This document shows positions 2,375 through 27,411 of a DNA stretch of 27,411 bases, one piece after another. Position numbers and translations under genes: made by a program. Numbering within the stretch: position 1 is the first letter of the stretch; every line of letters begins with the position of its first letter. The notes under the pieces are model-generated. The model was given only the letters and a program-made list of their open reading frames with translations, was not told the origin of the DNA and did not search any database. The stretch lies in assembly GCF_000003605.2 (NCBI RefSeq), contig NW_003120933.1, positions 62,505 to 89,915 on the forward strand. Reading direction: 5' to 3'. This DNA comes from Saccoglossus kowalevskii. Lineage: Eukaryota > Hemichordata > Enteropneusta > Harrimaniidae.

Positions 2375-2452
2375 TTAGGATTCCTGCACTTGTTCTTTTT
2401 GTTCAACTTCTCCGTTGCTTGTTTTTTGACGTTTGACGAATTCTTCACCTTC
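2375..2452 (-). CDS. Exon 5 of modular-repeat gene (stop codon)
   Basis: 25 codons then TAA, after a CTACTTGCAG acceptor. It starts EGEEFVKRQK, the last E-G half-motif, here with V for L and no trailing glycine, and finishes in a polar Q/E-rich tail. The 3' untranslated region continues leftward. Confidence 0.85.
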   Translation of the reverse strand, partial: EGEEFVKRQKTSNGEVEQKEQVQES

Positions 2453-5400
2453 CTGCAAGTAGAAAATAGAAATTGGTCATTATAATTATTTCACATTTCA
2501 AGATAAACTGATGTACCACCGGCAATATTTCAATGATCAAAAAATTTTTTAAATCAATTCTATTGGAGATGAGTTTCTTTCTAATAAGAGCATACATTTT
2601 AGTTTACAGAGGCCTAAAACAGTGGCAGATTTTAAATACATGAATACATTAGTGTATACAATTTAAAAAAAAAAAAAAAAAATAATCACCACCATACCAA
2701 TAAATGCTTAAATTTGGTGAAATAGGATCGTTAATTATCAGAAAATGTCAGAATAGACCAATTACAAATTAATAGCATCTTAGAGGAAGACTTTAATAGA
2801 TTACCTTAACTGTTTCTGCCATAGTATGGGTTCTTTTTAAAGCTTTTGCTTCTTCATCTTCTGCCTCAGCATCATCTTTCTTTTCTGCAGATGCATCAAA
2901 TCCTTCTCTTTCTAAGAATGCTTTTCCCTCCTCCGCTGTGGCCACCATGGTACCAGTTCGTGTCACTGTTGGCTTCTCTTCTTCATTAGCGGCCGACTCA
3001 TCTTTTTCTGCTTTTTCAGTTACATCAATAGCATCAGTAACAGCTTTAGTTTCTGACCGAGTCCCACTAATTACAACATCCCCAAGGAATTCTTTCCCTT
3101 CCTACAAAAATAAGTGAATTACATAATAAATTTCTACAAAAATGTTTACTACCTGATGTTTTGGGGATTGAATGATTTATGGGACAAAACGGACTGGCCA
3201 TTTATTACGCCCAAGTCAGTTTTTGTATTTATAGCCATGGTATTTGTGATGTGTCGGGTTTGATATGGGTCCCCACAGCGACGGATATACAATGTGATTA
3301 TAAAATATATTGACACCAGATTTGAACATGCGCTACGTGACAATCATAGGACTTTAATTCAAAGGAAGAAATTTCAAATGAACTACAAATTATTGATCTT
3401 TTTGGAAGACAAAGTCCCATCAAATAAATTAGTGAAAAACTGAACTTGAACTGGTTTCCACGGAAACAATGACTGAATTTCCCCATAGCATCAAAGCTCT
3501 ACTGGTATTAAAATTGGTCAAAATATTCACAATACAGATTCAATAACTAATAAAACTACTGATTTTCAAAATCGCCAGTCACAGGGAATAATTCTGTATC
3601 AAATGTGTGTTGGCCACATCTATCTTTAAAAGCATTGCATTACTGTTGAATCAGTGAATGCGCAATATAGGAAAATCAAATCCTGATAATAAACCGTACC
3701 TTTGCCGTTTCAACCATTGTGGAATCTCTCTGTATTTTTGGTTTCTCCTCTTCTGTGATTTTCTCAATTTCTTTTTGTTGTCCCCTAGTTTTTGCACTTT
3801 CATCTGGTTTACCCTGGGTTTCAAGGAAAGCTTCTCCTTCCTGTAAGCAGAGAAATAACGAGATTAACAAAAATATACAAGATTGTGTTTACCAAACCAA
3901 GAACCATGTGGGAATGACCCAGTTACTGAAAACTATGTACATTTGTAGGATTATTGAATACCCAACCAAAATGACCATGTCAGCTTATTTTTCTCTTAGT
4001 GAGAACCGATTGGTGTTGAAATGGCTGACGCAGACAGCAAGAACTCAGTAGGATCAACTATCCTACAGCTTCATTTATCAAGATATTGCTGTGATGTGCT
4101 ACATGTGGACACTTCCTTAAAGGGGCACTTCCAGTTAAGCCTAATCTCACAACAAATTTACTTTCTTGATTAAAGTTACAATGGATAACAAAAGATAGAT
4201 TAACTTTGTAAACTTAAACAGTAGTGTCCCATCATTCTTTGGTGCAATCCCTGGGCTTGGAAGGTTCCCCTTTAAGGCAGTATGGAGGCATTCAAGTGTT
4301 GCATGGGGGTGCTGTTCATGAAGGTAAAACTGTTTGTGATGCCAATTTTAACATGTGATATATAGTGCTGTTCATGAAGTAGAGTCAGAAGAAGCAGCTT
4401 ACAAGACTACCTGCTTGGCTATCGTCAGACTAATCAGCGAGCAGCTGACAGGGTTTTTTTTTTGCCTTGTATTTATGCTTAAACTCAACCGCTGAAATAT
4501 GCTAACCAATCATACAATACATAATTTCCAGATGTAATAGACCTAGTAGAATAGATGTCAACTATTCCCGAGGGCGGAGCTATGTCACAGAACGCTCTAT
4601 GTTGCTATGACGCGCACCACTGTACCATGTATTTCTATGGGGTTTACATGAGTTGCTGTGGAATGCCGGTCGAAGATCCGGTGAAAACAGCTACAGTCGA
4701 GAAGACAACACAAACTCAACTTTGAAGCAACAACAAAATTGATATACGTTGCATATGCAGGGATAATATTGTTACACTGTTCAGGAGGGTCTCAATAACT
4801 ATCCCAAAGTGACATTTGCTGAGAGATTTTGGTCATTTTGTTTTCACCATGATGGATGCCAGGTGGTGAAACTCCACGGATGTTTGTTCCCGAGAATAGG
4901 AACAACTAAACTGATAGTAGTAAATTTGGTAGTGCACAGATAAATAAGCTTAGGACCCCTTGCAGTATACATTGGTGTTTACCGCATTTCAATTGTGCAA
5001 TGAAGCAAATGTTCACTAAATTTTGCCTTGTGCGAAACACTCACGAATAAGCCCCGAAGTCACGAAGCATATTATCTTACAGTGGTGACCCAGATTTACA
5101 TTTCTTAATATCAACACCAGCTGAAACAGCCATCTGACTGAGTTTCTGTCAATGATCACGTCTAAATAGTTGGCATACTTGTCCATTGGTCACTATGACA
5201 ACATCAAACCCCACACAGTTCAATGCTTCATCCAAATGATTAGAGCTATTAAATCCATGCCGTTTAACCAGCTTGCACAACTGTTCATGCCAAAATATTG
5301 ATTGTGATCAAAGTTTAGGATTTTTGACTAATTTAACTAACTACGTTGTTGTGACAAAATGAATAATCATAACTATTCAATAAATTAAATTAAATGAGGA

Positions 5401-8400
5401 GAGGAGAGGAGGAGGAGAGGAGAGGAGAGAATAACCCAAGTCTATTATTTGTATAATAAAGTCAATAGTCCATTAAAAATGTTACAATGTATCAAGTATT
5501 AATAGTACTGACATGAACTGCTCTTATCCTGCATAGCAGAAACATGTGTGATAATTTAGCATCTCTCAGTGGCAATGATATCTGGGCAGTAAGATTACTC
5601 TCGGTCATAAAATTTTAGTTTATAATATATATATTTAGCATATAGAAAAACAGATTTACATATCACTAACAGAAACACACAAAAACGCATTTATTATATG
5701 CTGAATTATAATATGAGGTTATTACGAGGATACACGAGTATGCACGAAGACAGAACAGCTGTATTATACATCTTTTCCTTTCAAGGATACATCATGGGAA
5801 TGCTGAAATCCAAAATGCTTAGAACAGAATCAGCGAACTTCTTTGTGTGGAGTCTGGTCAAACCTTGATGGCAGCCATGTTTGTTTTTATTAGAGAACGC
5901 TTACGCGCGTAATCATTCCATATTTGGAATTCGCATTTACTAATATGGTAGGATGAAAACACCCCGCTAACTACTGCAAAATTACGACACGCTGTAACTT
6001 ATGGCGTTACGGTGACAGATGTATAATAATAGTATTTATTTGCTTGTGCATCCAATAGAGTACATGTGTTTTAATAACAGTTTGACAAGATTTCAAGCAA
6101 GCATGTGCTTTTATTGAACCTGGCAGTGTACTGAGAAGGAGAACACAATTGCAAATTATTTTGTGGGATAAGCAGTGTTCCTTGTAAGCCGATGATTTGA
6201 AGTGGCACTGAACGAAGATTTGTGGTGACGCAATTAGGCGCGTTAATTCACTGGTGTATCATCAAGCTTTAAACTTTGTAATTTGGCGAGTGAAATTCAT
6301 AGTTTTATAACACAAGTATAAAAATGAGGTAAATCAAAAGCTGCATTTTTTTGTTGCCCCCAGTTACCTATAAAGTCATACACAACTTTATTTGTTTTCT
6401 AGAAGGCTGACCACCCCAGCAGTCAACAAGTCGACTCGACTTGTATATGGAAATTTCATTATCACACAAGATTCCCAGTAAATCACCACTGTTAGCAGGC
6501 ACATTGATAATTAACATGCAGATAACCTACCACAATAGCTTTGACTAACTAATTAAATGGTTTTAGGTACAAATGAGTTCTAGATTACGGATCACATAAA
6601 AAATTTAAGCTGCAGACTATGATCAAAATTAGGCATAAAATTCATCATGCCTGTTTATTTTGTAAGTTGTGAAAAATGTTGACATGCATTTTTGAGTAGA
6701 GCTGTGCATCTCCAATGGGTCAAAGGTCGCCATTAGGGTTTATAGTGTCCAGATGTTGAATGAAATGGCTGAATGTACAAGTTATTTTAGTATCTGCATC
6801 ACATTCTGTTTAACCCTTTGAGCACCATCTACAAAATTATTTTGTAGTCTGCTCTGTTCCACATGATATATTAATAAAAATTTACAAACCTTTTGATCAA
6901 AAACTCAAAGCAATACCTTAAACTGTAAGGTGCAAAATTACATAACGAAATTTTGTGATATTTTTACAAAATGTGAAAATATTTGCACTGAATCTTGGAC
7001 AGGAACTAGCAGCCTGTCGGCTGAGATAGCTCTGCTGTTATCAATGCACATTGCAATTAAAGAACAGAAGATATCATTCGAAAACTAGACTTTTTATAAT
7101 TTTTTATCAAAAATATTCATTAAAATTAGATAATTGAAGAACAAAATCATCACGAAATGATCAAATCTGAGAGAGGTCCACATGTAGTACCTAGATATGT
7201 AGTATCAAAGCAATTGGACTTGCGGTTTTCAAGTAGTCGAAAATAGCATTTTTAACCAAAAAGGACAAAAAATATTCGCTATAAATAAGACAATTTAACA
7301 TATCCACACGAAATGAACAAATCTGAGAGAGAACCACCCAAGGTACCTTCCTAGAAAGTTTCATGGCTATACAGTTTGTGGTTTTTAAGAAGAAGTCGAA
7401 AATGTAAAGTTGATGACAGCAACGACGAACTCCGGAGGACAATCAGTAGTACTATAAGCTGCGCTCGACTTCGTCGACGGCGGAGCTAAAAATATCTGGC
7501 ATTTAAAGGCTAGAGCTAACTTTATATAACGCCATTTGTTCGACTACCAGAGAACCATTCTTTGCCGATAGCTCAAAATCATTTTTTAGGAGAAAATGTT
7601 ATTTCTGTTCATTCTAAATCTCTCAAACACAATGGTGGCTTTACACAGAAATGCTACGCTTCCAAAAAACATAGTTTATTCTGTATTTGTTCTATTAGAA
7701 GCACATACACTCCAATAGAAATGTATAGATTAAAAATTTCATTTACTGTGATAGTCATTACACCTTTAAGTGCCAAGGTCAACTGTTTGCACTAAGATTT
7801 GACAGGAAAAATATGGCACTCAAAAGTTAAAACACTAGTTATGGAATCAGTACAAAATACTCACAATTCTCTTAAAGTTTTAATTTAACCAAATTCCGCA
7901 TTTTGAGAAGAAAAAATAAATATACAGCATGTTAATTTTTCCAGCTACTTAGCTTGGAGAGCACACTGCATTTAACAATAGGTGATTTTCAGTTTACCTT
8001 GGTACGGACAGAAATGTCTGTGACAAAGATCAAACGATTTGATTCTGAATTTATGTTTCTGTTTTTCATAAGCTCAATATCGTAGTGGCGATCCTTGAGA
8101 GGAGAATATTGCATTGAGATACCATTACTTTATCGAAATTATGCATAGGACATTAAGCGTGGAAATACCCCCAAAATAGTTTACGTTTAACCAACCACTG
8201 CGCTATATTTGAAAACCACTGCGACCTTTGTTTGTCCCGTTTTTTTTGTCCAATTTTAATGCATAATACGGTATGTCTCTCAATCAATGGGAAAGTAATC
8301 TATTAGCATAATCTGTGTTTACATTTTGAGTGCTCATTTAACAATAACTTAAAAAAGCGAAATCAAGCCCTCTAACATTCTTCTGCACTTGTTGGAATAA

Positions 8401-11400
8401 AAACAGAAAATTATAATAATTCTCAAAGCATTATGATCTACTTACAAGAACCGGAATTTTATTATAGTTTTAATACTTATACTAGCTGCCATATACCATT
8501 GATAAAAGAATTAATTAAATACATCAAAACAGCATATACGACAAGAAAACAATATTATCAATGTTAAACAAAAACTCACGGAAATGTAATATTTTAATTT
8601 TTATCTTCAAGTACCAGTATATTTCTTTACTGTATCTTTATGATAAGTATAGTTTTAGTTTTTTAGAATAGTTTGTTATACCTTTATTACATTTGTATTC
8701 ACCTAAATTGAAATTCTTTCAATATGGTTGTAATAAAGAATTATCTTATCTCATAGTGACTCTATCCAGTCGCTGACAACTCAGAAATAGGGAACTTAAG
8801 TTAAATTTGGTGTTTCTTCTCAGAGATGAATCAAACCGCAATAGGAAGATAAAGGATTCTGAGTGATAGCATCCTAGATAAATTAATAGCATAGCCTGTG
8901 TCATAAAACAATGCTTGATCAGGTTTGGGATTCAAATTGGTGTCAATATTAGGACGTGCACACAAACACAAAAACATCAAAATTCTCAAATGTCACAATC
9001 TTAAAATATTTCAGAATTTTGGGGTCAAAATCATACGTTATTTCGTTAATTAGACTGTAGGGGCAATTTAACAGCAAGAGGTTACTTCTGACTTCAAAAA
9101 ACAACAAAAAAACACCACTGGGATGTGTATTGTAAAATCTGCGTTAGAAGCTGTGGCTTCTATTAAAATGGTACAATGCAACTACGGGGATGTGGCTTCT
9201 ATTGGAGCATCTACACATGAGAGAAATGGTGAATGTTTGGTGCGACTTCTATTAGAGATGCGGCTCCTAATACAGATTTTACAGTATTCATTAATATCAC
9301 TACATTATTAGAAGACTTAAAACTAAATTTTATTTTAGAGACTGAAAGAATCGTGTCTATGCATACTAAATATATTGATTGGCGTACTACACAGTGTATC
9401 GAGTTACACAGCTAGTCAGGAAAAAAAACCTACTCAGTTGTTGATTTTATCTTAATATGCTATGAGTCACCATACCTCACACCCATATCAGTAACAATAC
9501 GCAGTTAGGAAGACTTGTGTCATGTTAATATATTAAGTCGAAGAGACGGTGACAAAAAGCAGATGATTATAAAGGCCCCATGTAGTTTATAATGTACACT
9601 AATAACGGAAATCATTTGCTTTCGAATCAAGTTTCCTATAAACAGCTCCCAAAAGAGTTTTGGTCAAACCGACACTTGATAACGCTGATATATACGACTA
9701 TGAATATCACAACATCAACTTTATGCTAATATTACAAATATAAATTGAGTGAACGACAAACTAGAAATACAAATATACCACCAAAAAAAGATTAACGATC
9801 TAACTACAAAAAGGTAAGGGTGTCCAGATGATGCTATTACATATATAGTTAAGGAGACTCGCATGATTATCAACATACAGCTAAGTAGACCTGCATGATG
9901 CAGTTGAGAGAATCAAGATCAGTGCAAATAGACGCAATTATCAATAATTTCAATTTGCTGTTTGATTTACATCACCATCTCCCAAACAAATATAGGAAGT
10001 CATAACTTCCTGCTTTTTAAGAGAAACGAATGTCAACAATAGCATCAATATGAATAAAATTACTGTAGAATACCTGATTTGTGCTAGAATTAATTTTTGC
10101 TAAAAATGATTTTTGGTTGTTTTGTTTAGAATTTATTTTCACCGATTTTTGATGAGTTGAATGTGAAATATAGGAAAAAAAAAGGATATTCGCTGGATTT
10201 TATTTTCACTGAAACATCCCTTCTGCGAAAATCAATTCCAAGCGAAAATAAAGTATTCTACAGTAATTTTATTTTCTGTTGCTGAAGTAGAGTTGGGTTT
10301 TGAAATTCCCGCACTCCATAACCAAATGTTCTACCATAAATCAAGATGTATTGACCCTCCATATTCATGCTTTGATGTATTTAATGGCACTTCTGATTAC
10401 AAAATGTTATGATGAAAGTTAATGACAGTGTCTTTGTGAATATTTTAAGATTACACAGCTCATGGAAAAATTGTCTCTTGTGAAACAGTATGTACAAGTG
10501 AGTGAGAACTCTGCGTTTACTAAAAGCAGTTTAAAGTAGTTGATAAATACTACCGTGCTCTGAAACTTGTGTAGCTATATCGGCAAGAAGAATAACTTTT
10601 TATTTACAGGTACGCAGAAAGTGCAGAAAACTCACTGCATACAAAAGAGAGCCAACATTGGTTTACATCACACTTATTACAAATAAAATTTCACCAGCCA
10701 ATCAGGTAATAAGATGCAGCAGTTGGATGTTTGTTAATTCTCACCTTCACTGTCCCCTTAATTGTTAAATCTCGTGCAACTTTTGGTTTTACCACCTCTT
10801 TATTGTCTTCCTCCTCCTCCCCGTCTTTGACCAACCCTTGCATTTTTAGTAACTCGTCTTCTCCCGAGTCTTTTAAAAATTGTATACCCTCCTACCAACC
10901 GACGGAAACAATTCAGGGAACAAACAGAGTCATGCATTATCAACATGCAATACAGAACATGGAAATTAGTAATAATCGTGTTTCCATGGCAAAAGCGATG
11001 TAAGAGGGAAATTGAATTTGTTTTTATCTGATTTTTCAATGGTTTTCAGTGCAAGAAATTGACGAAAACCTCTATATCTATCTTCATCATTACTTAGGTT
11101 AAAGGTCAAAAAAATGGTAGCCATTTGATTGTTGGTTATTTACTCACTATTATATCAATTAGAGATGTATAGAGTACATAACCAAATACAAATATTATTA
11201 TGCACATAGGTGATATAGGACAGACATCCATGGCCATGGTTGTAAACTTTGGTTTTAAACTTTAGCTTTAAATCACCACAAACCCTGCATTGTGTTGTGT
11301 TCGATATGGGTCTCGTGCACACTGCACTTCCACTGTGGCATTTTAATACATATAATAAACAGAAGATTTCATTTCGAAGTCAAGTGAGAATTATAGCAAT

Positions 11401-14400
11401 TTGTATTTTGCAAGCATGTGCATCATAGCAAGCATAGACGCACATGAATTTACAGCGAGCATAACAAGCAAGAAATTTAAGAAATTAGAAAAGATTTGCA
11501 CATCACAAAAGTTGTTGTGACCACAGTTTAAATACCATATGTGGTCTATCAAAGTACATCTTCAATAGGGACACATGTAAGCCAACCATTATATTTTAAA
11601 ATTTAATTTATTACGGCTATAGACATGCATATTATGTTATTTATTACATAACTAATTAAGTAAATGTAGTACATCTATGTACTGTTATCTACAGGTTAAC
11701 TTATTGACTAGTAAAATTAGTGAAAAAATACAACAAACCAGGTACTAAAATAGGCATTTATTATCCCCTCTCGGAATTACAGTACACCTTAACTTATCAA
11801 TAATTGTTAATATGTAAACAGTTATCAATTAACTAGTGCCTAGGGATTCTAAAACAATTATGCTAAACTACCGTAACAGTGATGTATATTTATGTAGGCA
11901 TCCAGTGCTGGTATAGACTGCACAGTCATAACTCCAGACAGAAAATGACCTGATTGCTAACATATCAATGTTAGGAAGTAAATAGAATTACAAAAGGGTA
12001 GACCAGGGCAATGTTTACCCACCCACAACTTCCACTGAATCAACAGGAACTACATAGTTAATAAGGTAAATTATTGTTAAATACTTGTAGTGAAATACAG
12101 ATCCTGTGCAGTTAGTAATATATTTTAAACATTTAAATAAAACTTGTACTGCACTTCAGACCCTTTGGAGTTAATGTTAGTTGATATAAAACTTTTGTAC
12201 ATGTATACTTAATATCTATATTCAATTTGTATTGTAGGAACTATACAGTTAATAAGGTGATATTTCCCAACATTTATATAAAATTATTCTTTAGGTAATA
12301 GCCACTTATTAATAATGTATGATTTACATTTAGAAATTCATGGTTTTAATTAATATCAGTTAATTTTTAAATTAGAAGATGAGGTATCATTCATTTTAAG
12401 TTACAAGTATAATGTACAGAGAGATTGCAAAGCGGAAAAAAAAACACATTTCTGGTCAGCATGTGTTCACAACAGAATAGCGAATTACATACCCTTTGTG
12501 CAACGTCAAATATTTTAGCCCCCCCCCCCCAAAAAAAAAATCCAGAAATTTGTTAAGGTCAGTTTCTCTAATGCACAAAGATGTACCTGGGTTGATGACC
12601 GGATAATGACACAGATGATTGAGATGGTACGGCTGCCGTTCAGCGGTACAAATTCAAGTCAGTGTCCTGCATAGAATATACAAAATTACAACTTTTTTTT
12701 CTAATAACAAAGCAAAGAAAGTTTTCATAGAAATCCAGTGTGCTGAGTATATTGGTCGTACATAAATCGGAAATGGGGTTTATTTAAAATTGCTTCAAAA
12801 TTTCAATTACCCTTTTAAAATCTACCTAATATGCAAATTAGGTAATTAATATGCAAAGATTGGAACTAGAAACTAATCAGGCCATTCAGGTATCAAGTTT
12901 CATTGAAATTTGCAAGGTAGTTCTGAAGAAAAAGTGAAAAAATTTAAATTGGTTAATAACTATGCAGATGAGTGCTTTAATATGCACGGATTTCAACAAC
13001 AAAATTAACCAGGTCTGTGCATTACCCAACAACATATATATACTAAGTTTCATTAAAATCTGCTGAATGGTAATTATGAAATATGCAAATTAAGTGATGA
13101 ATAAGCACATTTGCCACAAGAAAATCATCAGTTCTGTGCATTAATTCCAGTTTCATTTAAATCTGATAATTGCTTCTGGAGATGTCAGTGGGCACACTAA
13201 TCACAAAGACTCCCATTGTGTGCTTTACACACAAGAGTAAAAAACGCAAGAAGAACAATTATTTTCTTCTAGTCACACACACTTTATTATTACTAAAATT
13301 AAATAATGCATTGCAGCAGTCTAAAAAGATAAAATACCTGTATTATACATAATTTAAGATTCATTTCAAATCAAATAGTTGTGAGAATAGACTTTTCTCA
13401 ACTTGCACAGCACACAAATATGTTCCAAGGAGGGAGTTTTTTTTTATATTGCTTGGAATCATGTAAGATTTTATAAGTCTCATCTTATTACATGTCAGAC
13501 AATAATTGAGTAAAAAAAACATGTTTTGGCACATATGGTATGTCAATGAATGTACACAACACAACTGTCTATACTATTTGACTGGATAATATTTATCCCT
13601 GAGAAATACAATGAACAAACTGAATGTTCAAATAAAACATGCTCCACCCTTTGGTTGTTGCCCAATCCATTGAGGGGGGGATGGGTGGGTTGGTAGTTGC
13701 AGGGGTGTCATGAGAAGAAGGGCGTTAGAATCATTGGAAGAGAGCATGATCTAATTGAAGTACATAATAAATACAGTACACAGATGACAATCCAAACAAG
13801 TTAAAACTTAAACTTCTCAACATGCAAATTAGTTCATCCACAGTCCCTCCATCTTTTTATAAACTGCTCACCCCCCTCAACATGAATGGTGCGTCCTTGA
13901 GTGTGTACACTACTGCCTCCTATTGTGTATACTATTGTGTATATTTGAACATCTTGGTTGCTTCTGAATTACTATATTTTTTTCCCATCATAACTATAAA
14001 TTTGGTAATTACTTAAAAGGTTTTAATCTCACTATTCTCGCTGATAAGGAAAATTAATAAATTAAATTCATGTTAACAATAAATGAAAAACCATGGAACT
14101 CATTGTTTACCCCGGCAAATATGTGAACTCGAAGGGTGGTGGTTGAGCGCTGCGCATGTACAACATTTGTGTTGATAACATTGTTTTTGCCACAGTCCAA
14201 TGCGTTGTTCTTCTTCGAAAATCACAAGTATAAGATTTGACCTGGGCGCGACTTGCACGAATTACCGTTTGTAGTGACTCCTTCGATACATTTCAGTCAC
14301 CTAAAAAAATACCTAATTGAGACTTGGTAACGCCTCAGTTTGTATTCGTTGATCTGCGCAAAGGTCAAAGTCGCCATCTTTGTTTATACGACCCCATATA

Positions 14401-17400
14401 TCTTGCACATGCGTGGTGCGACGACTCTTGCACTTTAAAAACTATATATTCACAATATAAAAATAATGACATTAAAAGCAAGTAAAAATTAATGGTACTG
14501 ACATTTTAATGTTTACATTTTCCAAAAAAGTGTATAATAATAGAATGATTACGATAATAGATGAACTAAATTTTCTGAAAAATATCAAACAATGGAAACA
14601 TAAAACACAGATACGGTAGTTTCTAAAACTAAAATTATAATGTCCTGTTATAATTTTGAGCATCATTTTACAGTGTTTAATGTGATAAAACTAAATCATG
14701 GGTGCAGCTGGCAAGGATAATAGTGTTGAGGTTACTAGGTATTAAATACAACCCAGTTTCACACCTGGGAATCTGATACAGTAATTTTAGTAGCAAAATG
14801 GGCATTTCATTATTTCATACAAATATATTTTTCTGTGATAACATTTTAAAATCATCTCAAGATTTTTTTTGTCAGTCTGAGAAAACAAACTTTTTTTTTT
14901 TTAAATATGTCTTATTAGACAAGCAAAATTATTTATGGTACAAAAGCATCACCTGTTACCCTGTATCTCGTTAATTAAAATACTTTGCTACTGGTGTTAA
15001 TTCACAGGTAAGGGGTCAAAATCATGACAAAGTCATTTTGATGTTAATCGTTTCAAATATCGGCAACAAGTTGTTGATATGCATACAAGTACTTTATATG
15101 AACTTTGGAAGTGGATGTTCTCAGCACCCCTAAAGTAATGTATTAAACTAAAATACTTTTTTTTGTTATATTTAAGTTAATTTTATTTCTTTTCAAAATA
15201 ACAAATACACATAGGCCATGGTGGGTTAGGGATGTTGGATATTTGTGCTATGCAGAAAGCTTTTAAAATTAACTAGGTTAAAAGGTATTTGTCACCATAT
15301 TGTCATCCATAGAAACGGTTCCTAGATCTTTATTTAAAACCACTTGGGGGAGAATTAATTTTTAGATGCAACTTCTCAATAAACGCACTACATATTAAAT
15401 TACCACAGTTTTATTGGGAAAAGCTAAATGTATGGAGTAATGTTATACAGTACGAGTTTATTTTCCCTGCATACGAGATTATATGGAATAATAAAAACAC
15501 TCTTATTCAAACTAAAAGTATATTTTATTCAGATTTAAAGGATCTAGGAATTGTTTATATAGTTGACATCTTTAATGAGGAGGATACGGTTAAAAATTGG
15601 AATGACTTAAATTCATTGGGTTTAAACCGCATTCAGTTTCTACGATGGCAGGGTCTCATTGCGGCTATCCCTAAAGACTGGAAAATAAGTAGACCAGTTG
15701 TTGTGCGGCCAGATCCTCCAATCAGTGTATATGGTCGAAAGCAAATGATTAATCTCTCTAACTGTACCCCAAAATTCAGCCATAAACTCATCTCTTCCGA
15801 TTTTTTTTTATTATTCCATCTAGTCAGTCCTTCTTTAGAGACTTGTTGGGGGTAGAAACTGGATGGGATTTTTTCTCTTCAATGCCATTTCTTGTTACAA
15901 TTTGCAGTACTCTTCGTGAATTTCAATGGAAATTAAACCTTAACATCTTGTACACAAATGCTATGCTATATCACTTTCAATCACCTTTAGTTATTTCTGA
16001 CATGTGTACATTTTGCCATAACTTTAGTGAAACTCTGATTCATCTCTTTTGTGACTGGCATGTGGTGCAAGATATTTGGACAAGGTTTTATGATCACTGG
16101 GGTCAACTTTTGCAGTGCCCCCGGCCACTTTCAGCAAAACAGATTCTCCATGGTGATGAAAGTTTTTCGCACCTTTTGAACCATTTAACTATTATCTTTA
16201 AAAAATACATCTATACAAGCAAAATGAAAAAATAATTACCATCCTTTGTTGCCATTAAAGCTGAAATTAGTTATATAAGAAAGATAGAAAATATGATTTC
16301 CATAAGAAGAAACACCATGTTTCTGTTTCTAGAAAAATGGGCCAATTTTGCACTATAAGACAACGTCACTTTATGTTTTGGTGGTGAACCAGTTAGTGTG
16401 TACAGCCTTTTTCTTTTCTTGTCTGTGTATTTGTTATTTTGAACTAAAATACTTTCTGTTTGGTTGTAATTAACATACGAGAGGAGACGTCTATTAATGT
16501 AATTATTTTATTTTCAGCCTGAAAAGATTTTGGCAGCAGACAATACGGAATAAATGACCCTGCATAAAATAGCATAAAATTCTCAATTTGTATTACACAA
16601 AACCTGACTTATTCTAACAGTAGGCCATTCAGGGTCGGTGTACAAATGAACTTCTTTTGACCGTAGAAGTTCCCCCACAAAGCAGAGTTTTAATTTACAA
16701 GGAAGTCAAACCAACAGTTTGTTGAACACTGCTTGAAGAGTCAGAGGTACCAAGGGAAACAATTAAATTATTGGGTGTTAATAGGTTTGGACAACGCCTT
16801 TAGTTTAATTAGCGCAACAGTTGTAAAAACATTAATTACGTTAACAGTTAGACAATCATTAATTGGTGCGTTACCATATACTTCGACCCCCATACAGTTA
16901 GTCAATGAAAATTCGAAACTTTTCAAGGTGCGATTTTCTTGATTATAAATCAACCTATCAACAAAATAGTTTTTCCCTGTTGTAGCACATGTTCTTAACT
17001 ATCAAATTTCGCGTGCAACCTTGTAAAAATAGCGCGCTTATGTATTATTAGGTTGTAGTATGCCACCGGTACGAGACGGGCGGTGATCAAATTTCTCAGT
17101 AAACTGACCTAAACAAAGGGCATGGACAGTGCCACGGAACGAATGACCGAGACGATCCGGCAAAAGGCAGTAATGTGTTTAGTGGAGATACTAAAATTAT
17201 GTCCATTTTGAGAGAGTGCATTAGTTATATGCGCAATAGTTGCTAGTGATTGCGCGAGAGTTTGCGTTAAGCTATGAGCGGATGTTTTCCAGCCCAAACT
17301 TGTAGAAATCTGGTAGCGTCCCCTGTACTAGCATGTAGCACAATGGGCAAGCAACGGAGAAACAGCGAAATTTGTGCAAGATTTACGTAAAAAAACCGCC

Positions 17401-17683
17401 TCGAATAGCGCAGACCGGGAACAGCATGGGAAATGCATATATAATGTCACTATTTGTGAAAACGAGAATAGTATGCGATGCTTATAAGCAAAGAAATCGC
17501 CGGTACATCCAGCTTACTCCCTTCAGCCTGGCCATCCATTTTGAAAACAACAAGAACAAAGCACGAAACGAAAGCAGAAGCGAAATAGCTTGCAAATTTT
17601 GCGATATTTAAGCAACCAAAACATACCTGTGCTGTAACTTTCATGGTAGAATCGCGTGTAAGCTGTGGTTGTTCCTCTGCCAT
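2375..17683 (-). CDS. Acidic modular-repeat protein, five exons, unrecognised family
   Basis: Spliced minus-strand gene joining 17683-17627, 10891-10745, 3840-3700, 3101-2805 and 2452-2375 (19, 49, 47, 99 and 25 residues; 239 in total, then TAA). All four introns are GT-AG and phase 0. Five copies of one motif are visible: a basic half of the form [LVI]-x-R-[DT]-x-T-[MI]-x-x-T-[AV]-[KQE], then E-G-x-x-F-[LV], usually x-x-x-G. Four copies are cut by an intron exactly before E-G; the fourth is uninterrupted inside exon 4. The linkers are rich in E, K and D, and three end in a K-P or A-K step before the next basic half. There is no signal peptide, membrane segment or cysteine cluster, so a soluble, largely disordered protein is likely. 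The start codon has A at -3 and G at +4. Function is unknown; I cannot name a family. Further modules could be hidden in the two introns of about 7 kb. Confidence 0.85.
2453..2804 (-). other. Intron 4 of modular-repeat gene
   Basis: 352 bases with GT-AG ends on the minus strand. Contains an A-homopolymer near 2666-2683 and nothing else recognisable. Confidence 0.7.
2805..3101 (-). CDS. Exon 4 of modular-repeat gene (double module)
   Basis: 99 codons, phase 0 at both ends (TTTGTAG acceptor, GTAATC donor). It starts EGKEFLGDVV, runs through an acidic linker, then contains a whole motif, VTRTGTMVATAE followed by EGKAFLEREG, with no intron between the halves. It ends with the basic half LKRTHTMAETVK. 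It is about twice the size of exons 2 and 3, as expected if two module exons fused by precise loss of the intervening intron, or if the intron was never gained here. Confidence 0.9.
3102..3699 (-). other. Intron 3 of modular-repeat gene
   Basis: 598 bases with GT-AG ends on the minus strand. The small open frames inside it look non-coding and no repeat was recognised. Confidence 0.7.
3700..3840 (-). CDS. Exon 3 of modular-repeat gene
   Basis: 47 codons, phase 0 at both ends, with TTACAG acceptor and GTACGG donor. It opens EGEAFLETQG, passes through a charged linker ending E-E-E-K-P-K, and closes with the basic half IQRDSTMVETAK. With exon 2 it best shows the one-module-per-exon plan. The plus-strand open frames over this exon are shadows. 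Confidence 0.88.
4121..4271. mobile_element. Short TTAA-flanked MITE
   Basis: 151-bp element bounded by TTAA on both sides (4117-4120 and 4272-4275). Termini are AGGGGCACTTCC and the imperfect complement GGAAGGTTCCCCT. TTAA duplications are typical of piggyBac-type transposition, although the terminal AGGGG is not the usual CCY start. It has no coding capacity. Confidence 0.55.
4276..5080. other. Intronic stretch without gene
   Basis: Inside intron 2 of the minus gene. A phrase containing GCTGTTCATGAAG occurs twice (near 4310 and 4366), and there is a CpG-richer patch at about 4565-4700. No exon is supported. Confidence 0.4.
5090..5325 (-). pseudogene. Possible degraded coding fragment, unrecognised
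   Basis: On the minus strand a frame of about 50 codons reads with a protein-like composition (HEQLCKLVKRHGFNSSNHLD, then a hydrophobic G-F-D-V-V-I-V stretch) up to a TGA at about 5156. It continues in frame past the stop for about 20 codons. No family is recognised. It could be a transposon or retrocopy remnant, or chance. Confidence 0.2.
5395..5432 (+). repeat. Purine-only GAGGA simple repeat
   Basis: An uninterrupted run of G and A built from GAGGAGAGGA words, about 38 bp long. Simple-sequence tract in an intron. Confidence 0.85.
5433..6809. other. Intronic stretch without gene
   Basis: AT-rich, no exon seen. Short words resembling known-style repeat edges occur, for example GGTCAAAGGTCGCCAT near 6719, which recurs almost unchanged near 14363. 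Confidence 0.4.
6814..7826. mobile_element. piggyBac-like non-autonomous element, about 1 kb
   Basis: TTAA (6810-6813) is followed by CCCTTTGAGCACCAT. At the other end ATGGCACTCAAAAG (7813-7826) is followed by TTAA (7827-7830). The ends are imperfect inverted repeats starting CCC/CTT, as in piggyBac-family elements, and TTAA is the family's target duplication. There is no transposase frame. The interior carries a tandem repeat (7085-7420) and a CG-rich tail near 7425-7490. Confidence 0.6.
7085..7420 (+). repeat. Tandem repeat, about 156-bp period, inside the TTAA element
   Basis: CACGAAATGATCAAATCTGA at 7151 recurs as CACGAAATGAACAAATCTGA at 7307. Each unit then has a GGTACC/AGTACC segment and a GGTTTT-(C/T)AAG-AGTCGAAAAT segment. 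About two full units are present, plus a partial third at the left. A dispersed copy lies at 113-219. Confidence 0.65.
7998..8093 (-). CDS. Possible cassette exon of modular-repeat gene (tentative)
   Basis: An open stretch of exactly 32 codons on the minus strand, preceded by a pyrimidine-rich acceptor (TTCTCCTCTCAAG) and followed by a GTAAAC donor, phase 0 at both ends. The reading begins DRHYDIELMK and ends in V-R-T-K. It lies in the intron between exons 2 and 3 and would keep frame if included. It does not carry the E-G-x-x-F-L motif, and inclusion would separate the two halves of copy 2. It could equally be chance or a transposon remnant, since a piggyBac-like element ends 170 bp away. 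Confidence 0.22.
8094..10060. other. Intronic stretch, mostly featureless
   Basis: No exon is supported. Near 9153-9272 the phrase GTGGCTTCTATTA recurs three to four times in degraded form at irregular spacing, a decayed minisatellite. The two small open frames over it are not protein-like. Confidence 0.4.
10063..10263 (-). mobile_element. TA-flanked MITE, copy 1
   Basis: 201-bp element with CTGTAGAATAC at one end and GTATTCTACAG at the other, flanked by TA. Read on the minus strand it matches copies 2 and 3 over their left halves (CTTTATTTTCGCTTGGAATT, AATAAAATCCAGCGAATAT). The long inverted termini and TA duplication suggest a Tc1/mariner-type non-autonomous element. Confidence 0.75.
10745..10891 (-). 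CDS. Exon 2 of modular-repeat gene
   Basis: 49 codons between a TAG acceptor and a GTGAG donor, phase 0 at both ends. It starts EGIQFLKDSG, has a Glu-rich linker with four consecutive glutamates, and ends with the basic half VARDLTIKGTVK. Here the usual T-M is T-I, and the T-A-K is T-V-K, making this the most divergent basic half. A plus-strand open frame over the same bases is a shadow. Confidence 0.85.
10892..12045. other. Intron 1 of modular-repeat gene, right of exon 2, featureless part
   Basis: AT-rich with no coding signal or recognisable repeat. Scanning the minus strand for the E-G-x-x-F and T-M-x-x-T-A-K patterns with splice sites found nothing by eye. Confidence 0.4.
12046..12290 (+). 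repeat. Decayed tandem repeat with AGTTAATAAGGT starts
   Basis: GGAACTACATAGTTAATAAG at 12046 recurs as GGAACTATACAGTTAATAAG about 192 bp later. Between them AGTTAGTAATAT and AGTTAATGTTAG mark further degraded starts, each followed by a TTTA-ATAAAAC word. Unit length is roughly 55-80 bp. Confidence 0.45.
12830..13185 (+). repeat. Tandem repeat of about 125 bp carrying ATGCAAAT words
   Basis: Three diverged units start near 12830, 12960 and 13082. Each has ATGCA(A/G)AT, then usually a second ATATGCA-like word, then a phrase ending in (C/T)AAGTTTCATT-AAATCTGC. Its clean order suggests a dispersed intronic repeat with internal duplication. Confidence 0.55.
13190..14099. other. Intronic stretch without gene
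   Basis: AT-rich, no exon or repeat recognised except a G-rich patch near 13672-13700. Confidence 0.4.
14100..14420. other. CpG-richer island with a YY1-like word
   Basis: This stretch has noticeably more CG dinucleotides than its surroundings. On the minus strand 14370-14380 reads AAGATGGCGAC, close to the YY1 core. The longer phrase GGTCAAAG(G)TCGCCAT is shared with 6719-6734, so repeat origin is possible. No exon is attached. Confidence 0.3.
15211..16358 (+). pseudogene. Dead L1/Tx1-type LINE, 3' end of ORF2
   Basis: Frame 1 reads HGGLGMLDICAMQKAFKIN, then stop, VKRYLSPYCHP, then stop, KRFLDLYLKPLGGELIFRCN and onward to 15855, a typical region after the reverse transcriptase domain. Both stops are TAG (15274, 15310) where the family has tryptophan. 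A frameshift near 15800-15850, around a T run, moves the frame. From 15843 the other frame carries a zf-RVT-type C-x-x-C-x(8)-H-x(3)-C cluster, an in-frame TAA at 16233, then a further LINE-like tail to TAA at 16356. The element is 5'-truncated and non-functional. Confidence 0.8.
16359..17626. other. Intron 1 of modular-repeat gene near its first exon
   Basis: No exon is seen. Base composition becomes more CG-rich from about 17000 towards exon 1, as is common near a promoter. Confidence 0.4.
17627..17683 (-). CDS. Exon 1 of modular-repeat gene (start codon)
   Basis: Encodes MAEEQPQLTRDSTMKVTAQ and ends phase 0 at a GTATGT donor. It carries the first basic half-motif (R-D-S-T-M-x-x-T-A-Q); the matching E-G half is the start of exon 2. 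The next visible exon lies about 6.7 kb away. Confidence 0.85.
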
Positions 17684-19106: not shown

Positions 19107-19121
19107 GTTTCTATTGACAAC
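19107..19121 (+). promoter_or_regulatory. X-box match 1 (RFX site) within an inverted repeat
   Basis: GTTTCT-ATT-GACAAC fits the RFX consensus RYYNYY-N(1-3)-RRNRAC. It is framed by a perfect 8-bp inverted repeat, AGCTCACG (19099-19106) and CGTGAGCT (19121-19128); the final C of the X-box is shared with the right arm. It lies about 90 bp upstream of the donor of the presumed first exon of the ODAD1-family gene. RFX factors drive many ciliary genes through such sites. Confidence 0.5.
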
Positions 19122-19129
19122 GTGAGCTG

Positions 19130-19211
19130 AAGGACGGGGAAAACATTCAGCCATTATTCTCTGTGATCGTTGCCGTTAGGAACTTAAAAGCCAAGGCTTC
19201 TCAGAATATTT
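19130..19211 (+). other. Probable non-coding first exon of ODAD1-family gene
   Basis: The stretch ends at a strong GTAAGT donor (19212) just downstream of the X-box matches. It contains no ATG in frame with the coding exons. The coding exon at 21720 is preceded by a TTTCAG acceptor at 21680-21685, which requires an upstream exon. The 5' boundary is a guess. Confidence 0.45.
19169..19183 (+). promoter_or_regulatory. X-box match 2 (RFX site)
   Basis: GTTGCC-GTT-AGGAAC fits RYYNYY-N3-RRNRAC. It starts 62 bp after the start of the first match and 29 bp before the donor at 19212. Depending on the transcription start it may fall inside the first exon. Confidence 0.45.
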
Positions 19212-19771
19212 GTAAGTACTCGACCATTTTGTCATTTTTTGTAGTTTGATGATGAATTTTGTGAACCAGACTTGTATACTTATGACGCCTGTTTAGAAAT
19301 TGTTCAGTGATAGTGTATGGATTTTCGATGTAGACTGCCTTGTTGGTGACTGATGTTTTATTTACTTTTTAATTTTAGTTACAAATCATCACATTCAACT
19401 TGTTCAATTAGTTTACTTTATGCAGCATTATTCAATAAACGATAATTGTCAATCAGAACACAAGCATTCTAAATGTCACAAGGTCGACGAATATTCGAAT
19501 TTCCAAATCTCGCCGAGTTGAGAATGCGAACACATTATTTGCAGCTCGTTCCCGGCAGTACGCCACCATTTTGCCCCATCTTCTATAACTAACGGTAATG
19601 CAATTATTATGATTCAAAGATTTGGTTGAAACAAAAGTCATAATGAAATTGTGCCACATCACTCCTCTAACCATATATGGTCTATGCTCTAATTTGACAA
19701 CACTGGAAATATCATCAGCATGAATACTGATTTCATACTGAATTATATTATATTATCATGTAGCGTTAATA
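19212..19771 (+). other. 5' UTR intron of ODAD1-family gene, left part
   Basis: Begins with GTAAGT. No coding exon seen; the minus-strand open frame at 19453-19674 lacks family-like features. Confidence 0.4.
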
Positions 19772-19979
19772 CTGTAGAATACTTTATTTTCGCTTGGAAT
19801 TTATTTTCGCTATTTTCGCTGAAAGGATGATTCCGTAAAAATAAAATCCAGCGAATATACCTTTTCCCCTATATTTCACTTTCAACTTGTCAAAAATCTA
19901 TGAAAATAAATTCCATATAAAACACCCAAAATGTCTTTTCAGCGAAAATTAATTCTAGCTATAATAAAGTATTTCACAG
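19772..19979 (+). mobile_element. TA-flanked MITE, copy 2
   Basis: 208-bp copy, the best preserved: CTGTAGAATACTTTATTTTC at the left and AATAAAGTATTTCACAG at the right, TA on both sides. Extended inverted termini of about 40 bp (TTTCGCT-GGAATT against AATTCTAGC). Lies in the 5' UTR intron of the ODAD1-family gene. Confidence 0.8.
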
Positions 19980-21091
19980 TAGTATAGATTGATGTAATAT
20001 CAAAATTACCATATATATGTCAATACTGTATACTCGAATGTGATCAATGTGCAAGTCTATGGGGGCTTTTATGCGCTGAGGAAAGTGCAGTGAAACCTTG
20101 GGTAACACAATGAGTGTTACAATGTATACTATAGTTTACTTTACTCTATGCAGCCTTTCTAATTTTCAGTGTATGAACACATTACATTTTTTAGAAATGC
20201 TGTGATCTGAATGTGATGTCAGCAAAAATTAGTTAATTCATTGTTTAGTTGTTTGACACCTAGATATCCCATGGTCGAAAACACCACATACACCTATATG
20301 ATGGAATATGTCAGTAATGAAATATTCATCTTAAAACTACAAAAATATAGTCCATTATAGGGTACTACTTTCTAAATCATAGCGGAAGATGTATTGACTT
20401 ACACAATATACTAATAACAGGAATGAAAGGGTTACAACTTTGTATACATAAAAAATCATGCAGAAATCAACTGTGATCTCTAGGTGGTAGAATACTATCA
20501 ATTTTTAATGTAACTGGTAACAAGATGCCCCATGCATATTTTAGCATTTTAAGAGCAGTATTCATTTCAGGTGATTTTGCAACATGGTAAAAACACATTC
20601 TGCCTGATACTCAAACATCGAGAGTGAGCATTTTGGAAGCCAAAATTTTCGGAGTTAACCCATATAGTCGCTGAAGTTGATAGAATCATTTCATCATACA
20701 TTGTATGTGCACCATTTTGAGTTATAGCACTACCGGTATCAGTCAGTTTCTGTGCAAAATTGAGGGGTTGATTTCCAGCTTGCGCAATTTGTTCACTGGT
20801 TTCCCTGGTCCTGGCATTCTGATGAGCTATCAAAATGTGTATGGTGAAATGACCCCCCCCCCCCTCCCATGCACACAAAATTGGAATGTTTTTACCTCAG
20901 AGCATGCAAATTTCTAAGGTAACAATGGAACAATTTTATTGTGCAATCAAGTTCAGATGTACATTTGTAGGCTTGATTGGCCAATACTAGGTTTTTTGAC
21001 CACCCCCTCACCTTTATTGTAACTTTGGCAGATCATGTTCTGCAAGTGTGCCCTCTCTGGTGATTCAACGTCTCATCTCATTCCATTTTAT
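19980..21091 (+). other. 5' UTR intron of ODAD1-family gene, middle part
   Basis: No exon supported. A C-homopolymer lies near 20852-20863. The minus-strand frame of 103 codons at 20567-20878 reads plausibly in its centre but has no recognised homologue and no splice logic. Confidence 0.35.
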
Positions 21092-21792: not shown

Positions 21793-24700
21793 GTAAGTTG
21801 TTGTACTATAGATAGTAGACAGATATCGAAACTCTTACTCTAATATCTATCTTAATATCTCAATAAAAAATTTATTCAATAAAAGTATTAAATTTATTTG
21901 CTTCATTAGAAGGACATCTCTATTAGAAGTATGTGTAAGATGGAAGAGTAGTTTATTTTTGCTTAGAAATGCATTCACGTAAAACAGTTGGCTTGTTCCT
22001 GTTATTCCAAATTTGTTATCAAGTAATTAAAATTCATAGAAATTTTAAAAGAAAATGCCATAAAAAATTAGCTCCTATGTTACTTGTAAAGGACACTTAA
22101 AATATTGAAGTGAGCACATGAGATTCTAATAGTTGCAAACACGGTAAGAATAATATGATGGTATGTTCCAGATAAATTGTTTATACTAGAATGAGTTATT
22201 TGTATGTCAGTGTTTGTACTACCTGCCCGTACACTTAATTAAGATGGGTAATTTTGTCAAGCTAGTAAAAAATAAAAAACTTACATGCCCTGGGATCTGG
22301 TAAAATTTTGTCGTGGTTTGCTTCAATTAAAATTATGAAAATGCATTTTTTTAGTTTCTCACTTTGAATGTAAAGTTCTTAGATCTAGATGAAAATAATG
22401 ACCAAAGAAACATCGATATCATTCAGGTCATTGTGGTCACTGTGTACTGGTAACATTCTGACAGGACTGGTGAAATTTGAAAATTAACTGCTCTGGTGTC
22501 TAGTATATAATTTTGATAAATTTCAAACACTGTAAATGTTATCTTGTTTGTTTCAGCTGAGACTGAGTTGGCTAAATTACAACGTCAGTACCGTATCATG
22601 GAAGGTGATCGTAATGCATACAACATTGAATCACAGGACATGATTCGTAGACAACTGTAAGTGTGTTTATATTATTTAATGTACTCTACAGAGATGCACT
22701 AGTAGAGTGCCAAATCCACAATATATGTACCCAACAAATCCCTCAGATATGGGAGTTGCATTTTATTTTTAGATATGACTTTCCATCTGTAGTTCCTCTC
22801 TATCCTAATTATTGTTGTACAGATGTTAAACTGATATAAACAAAAACAGAATAGCGTGACTGTTTCCCTGTACATACCGACAATGGGAATTCTTGTTATG
22901 CATGTACCAACATTGTTGTATTGTAATTCACATGACGTGTGAAATTAGAAACCTTGTAACAGAGATGAGACATGGCTGTAAATAACAAAACACAATGGCA
23001 GTATTAATTACTTGTATGGACAGACTTGTCTGTCCTCGGCTGTATTTGCAAATTGGCTTGTTTAACATGCACCCAACTTTGTTGCTTATATTTATTTACC
23101 ATTTTATTTATATATTCTCTTCTACATTGTCAGTATACTGCCCTCTATGCCTTATTTTTGCAAAATTGTCTCCATGAGCCAGTGGATCCCAGTTTATTAT
23201 AAAATTGAAATGGGCAATCTGAGAAATATTCTGAAATTTCATTAATTTTATATTTGATTACACCTGATTCATAGTAGTTTTTGAGATGAAATCACAAGTC
23301 TTAATGTTATATTTAAAAATGAGTCAACATATCTTTCTTAAAGATTCACATTTCTCATTACATGTATCTTGATAAAACAAATCCATTCGATTTAGCGACA
23401 CTCGCATTACTTTGGTTTTTTCTAAAAAAACAAAATGCATCTTTGTATTGTACATGAATTGGCATGAATCATATTTTCAAAGTCTATTTGCTGATTTTCT
23501 TTAATGAAAATGTCTTCTTAATTGAAATTTTCTAGCGATCTGCAAAACATTCCAAATTCACATTTTGTATTAATGTAACCAAAAATTCCATAATGGTGGT
23601 TTGCTCCTAGAATTGATTTATTATGGTTATAAATGCGGCATGGATTTATACTGGGTTTTTGAAATAACTCTTTGAACTCCAAGGTTATCTTTTGTCACCT
23701 TTTGCAAAATGATTTCATAATCATGAAGAAATTATCCCGAAATGCATATAAATAGTGCAGCTAAATTTTGGTGAAAAAATGATGACAATCAAAAGATTAA
23801 TAGGTATTACTTTGCAGGGCTGAGATCAAGAAGTTGGAAGGAGAAAAGAAAGAATTGAATAAAGATCTGACCTTATCTGAAAGTAACAGCAATACGTCAA
23901 AGGATGAAAATAATATCATGAAGTTGCAAGCACTTTGTGAAGAAAGAGGTTTGGCAGATCTATTTTTTATCTCAAAACATTGCAAGAAAAAGTGTATATA
24001 TACATACCCCCGGTAATATAGTTATAATTATGTTCTACTTATGTGTATAGATTGTCTTGACCACCATGAAGTGACCTCAGGGAAACAGACACCGTGTAGC
24101 ACCCTCGGTGTAGCAACCACAGTGTTGGGGCTGTGTTTCTCTGGGCATGATAACAAATTGTACTATTTGCTAATGTGAAAAAAGTTCTGAATCTAACTTG
24201 GGTACAAAAACTGACCTCAAGACTAATGATATTAACTTCTTCTTCTTTGGTTTATTTTTAATTAAGCTACCCCACTTTAAACTTTTTGTACCTATATTTG
24301 AGAAAACAACACAAAATTGCCAGGCTTTGAATGAGATTTCAAAAAAAATCAGAACTTTGCAAATATTTGTAATGTAAACAACTTTAAAACATGATTTATG
24401 ACACTCATATCTGCAAAGCAGTGTTATAACCAAGAAAAAATAAAGAAAAATAAAAAAAATGTCTCTACCTACCGGTACTTACTTTAAGAAGCATGTCATA
24501 GGAAACACAATTTTTTTTTATTTGGCTCTATAGGAACCTTTTTTGATTATTTGTTACATTTTTAAAGTTTGTATCTTCATAAAATTATGTCCTGTCATTC
24601 AAAATGAGGAGATTATTTTTATATGGTACTGTAAACTACTTTATTTCTCTTGGAATTTATTTTAACTGAGGGAATGATTCAGTGAAAATAAAATCCAGCG

Positions 24701-27309: not shown

Positions 27310-27411
27310 GTACTAACGTAGAATGCGATTGATATATTCCTGAATAACTAAACAGTCATTTGAAATTCATTATGCTCAGATATAATATGCGCATAACTAA
27401 TTGAGACTGTT

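Follow-up and report, generated by a model that had tools for sequence, protein, structure and literature searches.

A five-module repeat gene of Saccoglossus kowalevskii in which phase-0 introns lie between the halves of the repeated motif

A gene in the hemichordate Saccoglossus kowalevskii raises the question of how a short protein motif came to be repeated five times and cut by four introns at one and the same codon boundary, and what such a protein might do. The window, that is, the whole stretch of DNA analysed here, spans 27,411 nucleotides of contig NW_003120933.1 (positions 62,505 to 89,915), and the gene occupies its minus strand from 17683 to 2375. Each of the five coding exons has a length divisible by three, the four introns are GT-AG, and every junction is in phase 0. 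The splicing was deduced from splice signals and frame, and on this reading the gene would be laid out as follows.

17627..17683, minus strand: exon 1, 57 nt (19 codons), start codon ATG and left half of module 1 (PQLTRDSTMKVTAQ), ending at a phase-0 GT donor
10892..17626, minus strand: intron 1, 6735 nt, phase 0, divides module 1; contains a plus-strand LINE-like fragment
10745..10891, minus strand: exon 2, 147 nt (49 codons), right half of module 1, acidic linker (net -6) and left half of module 2; AG acceptor and GT donor, phase 0-0
3841..10744, minus strand: intron 2, 6904 nt, phase 0, divides module 2; contains a palindromic repeat element
3700..3840, minus strand: exon 3, 141 nt (47 codons), right half of module 2, linker (net -1) and left half of module 3
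3102..3699, minus strand: intron 3, 598 nt, phase 0, divides module 3
2805..3101, minus strand: exon 4, 297 nt (99 codons), two units long, with the right half of module 3, a linker (net -5), the whole of module 4, a linker (net -8) and the left half of module 5
2907..2972, minus strand: module 4, the sole unsplit copy, inside exon 4
2453..2804, minus strand: intron 4, 352 nt, phase 0, divides module 5
2375..2452, minus strand: exon 5, 78 nt (25 codons and stop), right half of module 5 and the C-terminal tail

The conceptual product has 239 amino acids, of which 62 are D or E and 39 are K or R, while Cys, Trp and Tyr are all absent. Recomputation reproduced the exon coordinates, phase and product length given in an earlier, sequence-only reading, as well as its statement that the internal exons (2, 3 and 4) are made of whole codons. 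A search for paired TTTATT motifs gave no help in placing the poly(A) site of this gene.

The repeated module has the consensus [LIV]-x-R-[DT]-x-T-[MI]-x-x-T-[AV]-[KQE] / E-G-x-x-F-[LV], where the slash, here and below, separates the two halves, and occurs five times in the product.

Module 1: PQLTRDSTMKVTAQ / EGIQFLKD, split by an intron at the slash
Module 2: PKVARDLTIKGTVK / EGEAFLET, split by an intron at the slash
Module 3: PKIQRDSTMVETAK / EGKEFLGD, split by an intron at the slash
Module 4: PTVTRTGTMVATAE / EGKAFLER, without an intron
Module 5: KALKRTHTMAETVK / EGEEFVKR, split by an intron at the slash

These 22-residue modules aligned without gaps, with R5, T8, T12, E15, G16 and F19 identical in all five, and the similarity among them is far beyond chance. 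When each module in turn was left out and compared with a profile of the remaining four, the scores ranged from 42.5 to 55.5, a level reached by 0 of 3,000 shuffled products in each of the five tests. Six-frame scans of the whole window placed the five known left halves on top (at least 30.6; next 15.2) and likewise the five known right halves, with a smaller gap (at least 23.6; next 18.4). The alignment, shuffles and scan thus bear out the five copies claimed earlier, with some corrections to how they had been described. The left half given as R-[DT]-x-T-M-x-x-T-A-K stands overall, but copy 2 has T-I and the last residue is K, Q or E; it had also been called basic, which does not extend to copy 4, whose left half is net neutral by hand count. 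Similarly, the right half E-G-x-x-F-L stands except that copy 5 ends in F-V. The linkers had been described as acidic, and all four between modules are net negative (-6, -1, -5 and -8), the exon 3 linker by only one charge. No sixth copy was found in the window by six-frame profile scan. The best extra match, a stray right half GGEQFIKR (13875-13852), was rejected, as it had no partner left half among the matches. The introns were also scanned for phase-0 exons bordered by AG and GT that begin with E/D-G and finish with R-x-x-[ST], which returned only the known exons and trimmed versions of them.

Residues at four columns, position 3 (aliphatic), 5 (R), 8 (T) and 9 (M or I), make up a Phi-x-R-x-x-T-Phi pattern in all five modules. 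Shuffled products contained a mean of 0.044 such sites and a maximum of 3 (20,000 shuffles), versus one in each of the five modules; because the modules share descent, the five sites represent one conserved origin. The shorter form Phi-x-R-x-x-[ST] falls at T13, T62, T109, T166 and T208, covering the five modules, and at T225 outside them. CaMKI substrates are described as Phi-X-R-X-X-(S/T)-X-X-X-Phi (PMC12043318) and CAMK2D substrates as (R/K)-X-X-(S/T)-X-(D/E) (PMC10783575). All five modules share with the former the Phi at -5, the R at -3 and the T at 0, but have T at +4, where the CaMKI motif wants a hydrophobic residue. The CAMK2D motif wants an acidic residue at +2, where the modules have K, K, V, V and A, and CAMK2 as the specific kinase was rejected on this residue. 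Because the first part of these motifs is present and the +4 or +2 residue is not, a basic-residue-directed kinase acting on the modules is plausible, with none nameable. AlphaFold2, run on exon 4 alone from one sequence, returned a poor model (mean pLDDT 60.1, pTM 0.24) in which, of its ten-residue blocks, only 51-60 and 61-70, corresponding to module 4, averaged above 70 (77 and 75). The model has a helix at residues 56-65 (AEEGKAFLER) that spans the module 4 junction, a single weak prediction in support of a helix across the module junction. The amphipathicity of the helix is marginal, its mean hydrophobic moment being reached by 280 of 5,000 column permutations.

Our best explanation, held with middling confidence, is that this gene encodes a highly charged, probably mostly disordered linear-motif protein with five modules that grew by duplication of a symmetric exon. 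Exon-to-exon splicing would complete each motif, and each module would be an independent docking site. The threonine in [LIV]-x-R-x-x-T-[MI] would suit a basic-residue-directed (CAMK-group-like) kinase and would mark where a short helix begins; this helix, T-x-x-T-A-K-E-G-x-x-F-L, would fold on a partner. Phosphorylation would tune the binding of a module, and the number of modules, whether fixed or altered by exon skipping, would set avidity. The gene anatomy, the repeats, the intron phase and the frame-safe exon subsets are established by the analysis, whereas we infer the disorder, the kinase site, the binding partner and the isoforms of this protein.

Motif completion by splicing had been claimed for four copies, and coordinates and phase agree: in four of the five a phase-0 intron lies exactly between the halves. 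The corresponding intron-free place in module 4, between 2931 and 2930, reads GAG/GAG. Exons 2, 3 and 4 are whole-codon repeat exons with equal end phases, as in an exon-modular repeat architecture. When subsets of these exons were placed computationally between exons 1 and 5, all eight were in frame without internal stops and yielded 1 to 5 whole motifs in 44 to 239 amino acids, the shortest being exons 1 and 5 alone (44 amino acids). The suggestion that exons could be skipped without breaking the motif thus holds for every computed combination, and isoforms differing in module number are only a possibility. Taken as a whole, the earlier interpretation is plausible on the strength of the layout.

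Such an architecture is of a known kind, because insect multirepeat beta-thymosin genes share this layout and have reported exon skipping. The cockroach gene Pa-THY is reported to have four exons of 114 bp and introns of 2311 to 7658 bp, with exon skipping that leads to 3, 4 or 5 repeats (PMC6801668), and one form of silkworm BmTHY is without exon 3 (PMC4608725). By our own count, the 114 bp exons correspond to 38 codons, or about one repeat each. The features in common with the repeat gene are a short repeated motif, whole-codon internal exons, up to five repeats and, for the cockroach, long introns. The differences are that profiles find no sequence relation, that the unit is 38 amino acids versus 42 to 57 here, and that isoforms are reported for the insects whereas the present gene was read from DNA. 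Titin PEVK exons offer a second comparison (PMC6469411): there too a charged, repeat-like region is coded by many short exons, its length varies between species and some exons occur in part of the transcripts. The present protein differs from PEVK in having no PEVK/PPAK composition (by eye), in being much smaller, and in having a sharp conserved motif that straddles the junction.

Whether the exon symmetry is put to use is a separate matter. Splicing could be constitutive, with five fixed modules and a phase pattern that is simply left over from the growth of the gene, and we consider the chances of this to be about even. The introns contain no extra or alternative module exon in our scans of the window, as this reading would have it, but the insect multirepeat beta-thymosins, the nearest known layout, are reported to skip such exons. 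Because it concerns use and not origin, constitutive splicing is compatible with the history proposed in our best explanation.

That history would begin with one symmetric phase 0-0 exon comprising the end of a motif, an acidic linker and the beginning of the next motif. Old duplications of this exon would have enlarged the gene to five modules, and the precise loss of one intron would later have fused two units to give exon 4. Pairs of modules share 41 to 59% amino-acid identity and 50 to 65% nucleotide identity, and the latter values suggest that the duplications are old. Exon duplication, which had been proposed as the mode of growth, accounts most simply for the codon boundary that the four introns share, but parallel insertion of introns also fits, and we infer the duplication history rather than observe it. 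The main rival is that the repeat came first, by tandem duplication within one exon, and that introns were inserted later at recurring AG/G sites, with copy 4 receiving none. AG/G is a typical proto-splice site, and all five module junctions, that of the unsplit copy 4 included, read AG/GA; the GAG/GAG of copy 4 is compatible with precise intron loss or with absence of insertion. The very unequal intron lengths (6735, 6904, 598 and 352 nt) also suit late insertion, as does the scan for traces of duplication in the introns (seed 12, minimum length 30), which found none, and no repeat common to the introns at exon flanks; over the whole gene it gave one direct and one inverted pair, neither at exon flanks. 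Against this, late insertion requires four independent events at the same codon boundary and in the same phase, whereas duplication requires one old intron and one loss, and we regard late insertion as rather unlikely.

To which family the duplicated module belongs was addressed with several libraries. The whole product matched 0 families in Pfam (E up to 10) and 0 in NCBIfam (E up to 1). Pfam scans of single exons gave one sub-threshold match each for exon 3 (E 0.11) and exon 4 (E 9.2) and none for exon 2. PDB matches by sequence (best E 0.058) and by module profile (best E 5.9) were rejected as chance, so that the earlier statement that the family was not recognised agrees with the lack of a credible match in Pfam, NCBIfam and PDB sequences. 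Exons 4, 3 and 2 each matched only themselves in the source genome (572 Mb). These searches were of low sensitivity: the sister exons did not appear among their results, so that paralogues of about 45% identity would escape them. Exon 4 had 20 pattern matches in viral contigs and 252 in bacterial and archaeal genome contigs, none of them confirmed; little was expected here because of what these collections contain, viral contigs, bacteria and archaea. A literature search for the motif strings found no paper. The repeat protein is unmatched in the libraries searched, and its exon layout is itself already known from other repeat proteins.

The resemblance of module 5 to the LKKTET region prompted a test of membership of the beta-thymosins. 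The gene could then encode a very diverged beta-thymosin/WH2 protein whose [LIV]-x-R-[DT]-x-T stretch is the actin-binding LKKT core. The module-5 piece (LKRTHT...) aligned with thymosin beta-4 without gaps over 38 residues at a score reached by 5 of 3,000 shuffles, and its scores against thymosin beta-9 and one ciboulot repeat were reached by 34 and 7 of 3,000; two other ciboulot repeats, at 1310 and 303, did not stand out. The full product scored 51 against beta-4 and 44 against beta-9 (10 and 25 of 400 shuffles), values identical to those of the module-5 piece, and exons 1 and 5 alone would be about thymosin size. The four pieces that hold modules 1 to 4, linkers included, did not stand out, on the other hand, nor did the exon 1 and 5 product: 120 to 385 of 400 shuffles reached the scores. 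The loose pattern [LIVM][KR][KR][TV] occurs once, as LKRT in module 5, and the other four modules lack it, so that the LKKT[EV] core is not present. Thymosins have an aromatic N-terminal helix, which by eye is missing from the repeat protein. Neither Thymosin nor WH2 was matched in Pfam at E up to 10; for PF01290 this holds for the product, for exons 2, 3 and 4 and for exons 1 and 5, and the positive control, thymosin beta-4, did match that profile (2.4e-23). A home-made thymosin profile (beta-4, beta-9 and three ciboulot repeats) gave the product 1.1 bits with all filters off. Elsewhere in the source genome, on contigs other than this one, lie two thymosin-like exons, one canonical (E 1.4e-12) and one degenerate (E 0.00107), with phase-1 donors after TLPTKE or TLPTQK by eye (L008 and L009; next exons not located), unlike the phase 0 between K/Q/E and EG seen here. 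Because the profiles fail and the genome's own thymosin-like donors are phase 1 and elsewhere in the repeat, the beta-thymosin (PF01290) identity was rejected, the gene was not filed as a thymosin, and we consider this origin highly improbable. The degenerate exon lies at 1430-1620 of L009 (28.4 bits); its core reads FEKQDLRKVQTHVHNTLPTQK, and its phase-1 donor is, by eye, the same.

A bolder version of our best explanation, growth by symmetric-exon duplication of a linear-motif protein, is that the gene represents an unnamed animal family in which splice junctions write nearly every motif and the choice of symmetric exons sets the valency and the count of phospho-tunable helices. The range would run from a 44-amino-acid single-site form to a 239-amino-acid five-site form; we consider this reading distinctly unlikely. 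Should the junction be conserved in relatives and isoforms exist, the gene would offer a clean case in which to ask how multivalent linear-motif proteins are built by exon duplication and how splicing sets their valency. Otherwise it is one more repeat protein without a name, and its exon layout is ordinary.

Other features were observed in the window. A divergent neighbour gene lies at about 22560-27330 on the plus strand, with coiled-coil exons that, once joined by eye, hit the ODAD1 central coiled coil of Pfam (PF21773, E 9.2e-54); it presumably encodes an outer dynein arm docking complex protein of the ODAD1/CCDC63 group. Upstream of these exons, the pattern GTYNYYNNNRRNRAC, which we take to be an RFX X-box-like consensus, occurs twice (19107-19121 and 19169-19183), with starts 62 bases apart. 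The position of these sites would fit a ciliary promoter. The number of matches to the pattern in the window (3 versus 1.51 expected) is not significant, because 18 of 100 shuffles contain at least 3. Within intron 1, a plus-strand LINE-like remnant at 15313-16235 matches zf-RVT weakly (PF13966, E 0.0093), falling short of the curated cut-off. Finally, a palindromic element with TACTGTAGAATAC-like ends, which looks like a MITE, was present at 10053-10273, 19770-19981 and 24627-24713, with copies as much as 98% alike, in inverted orientation, over 41 nt.
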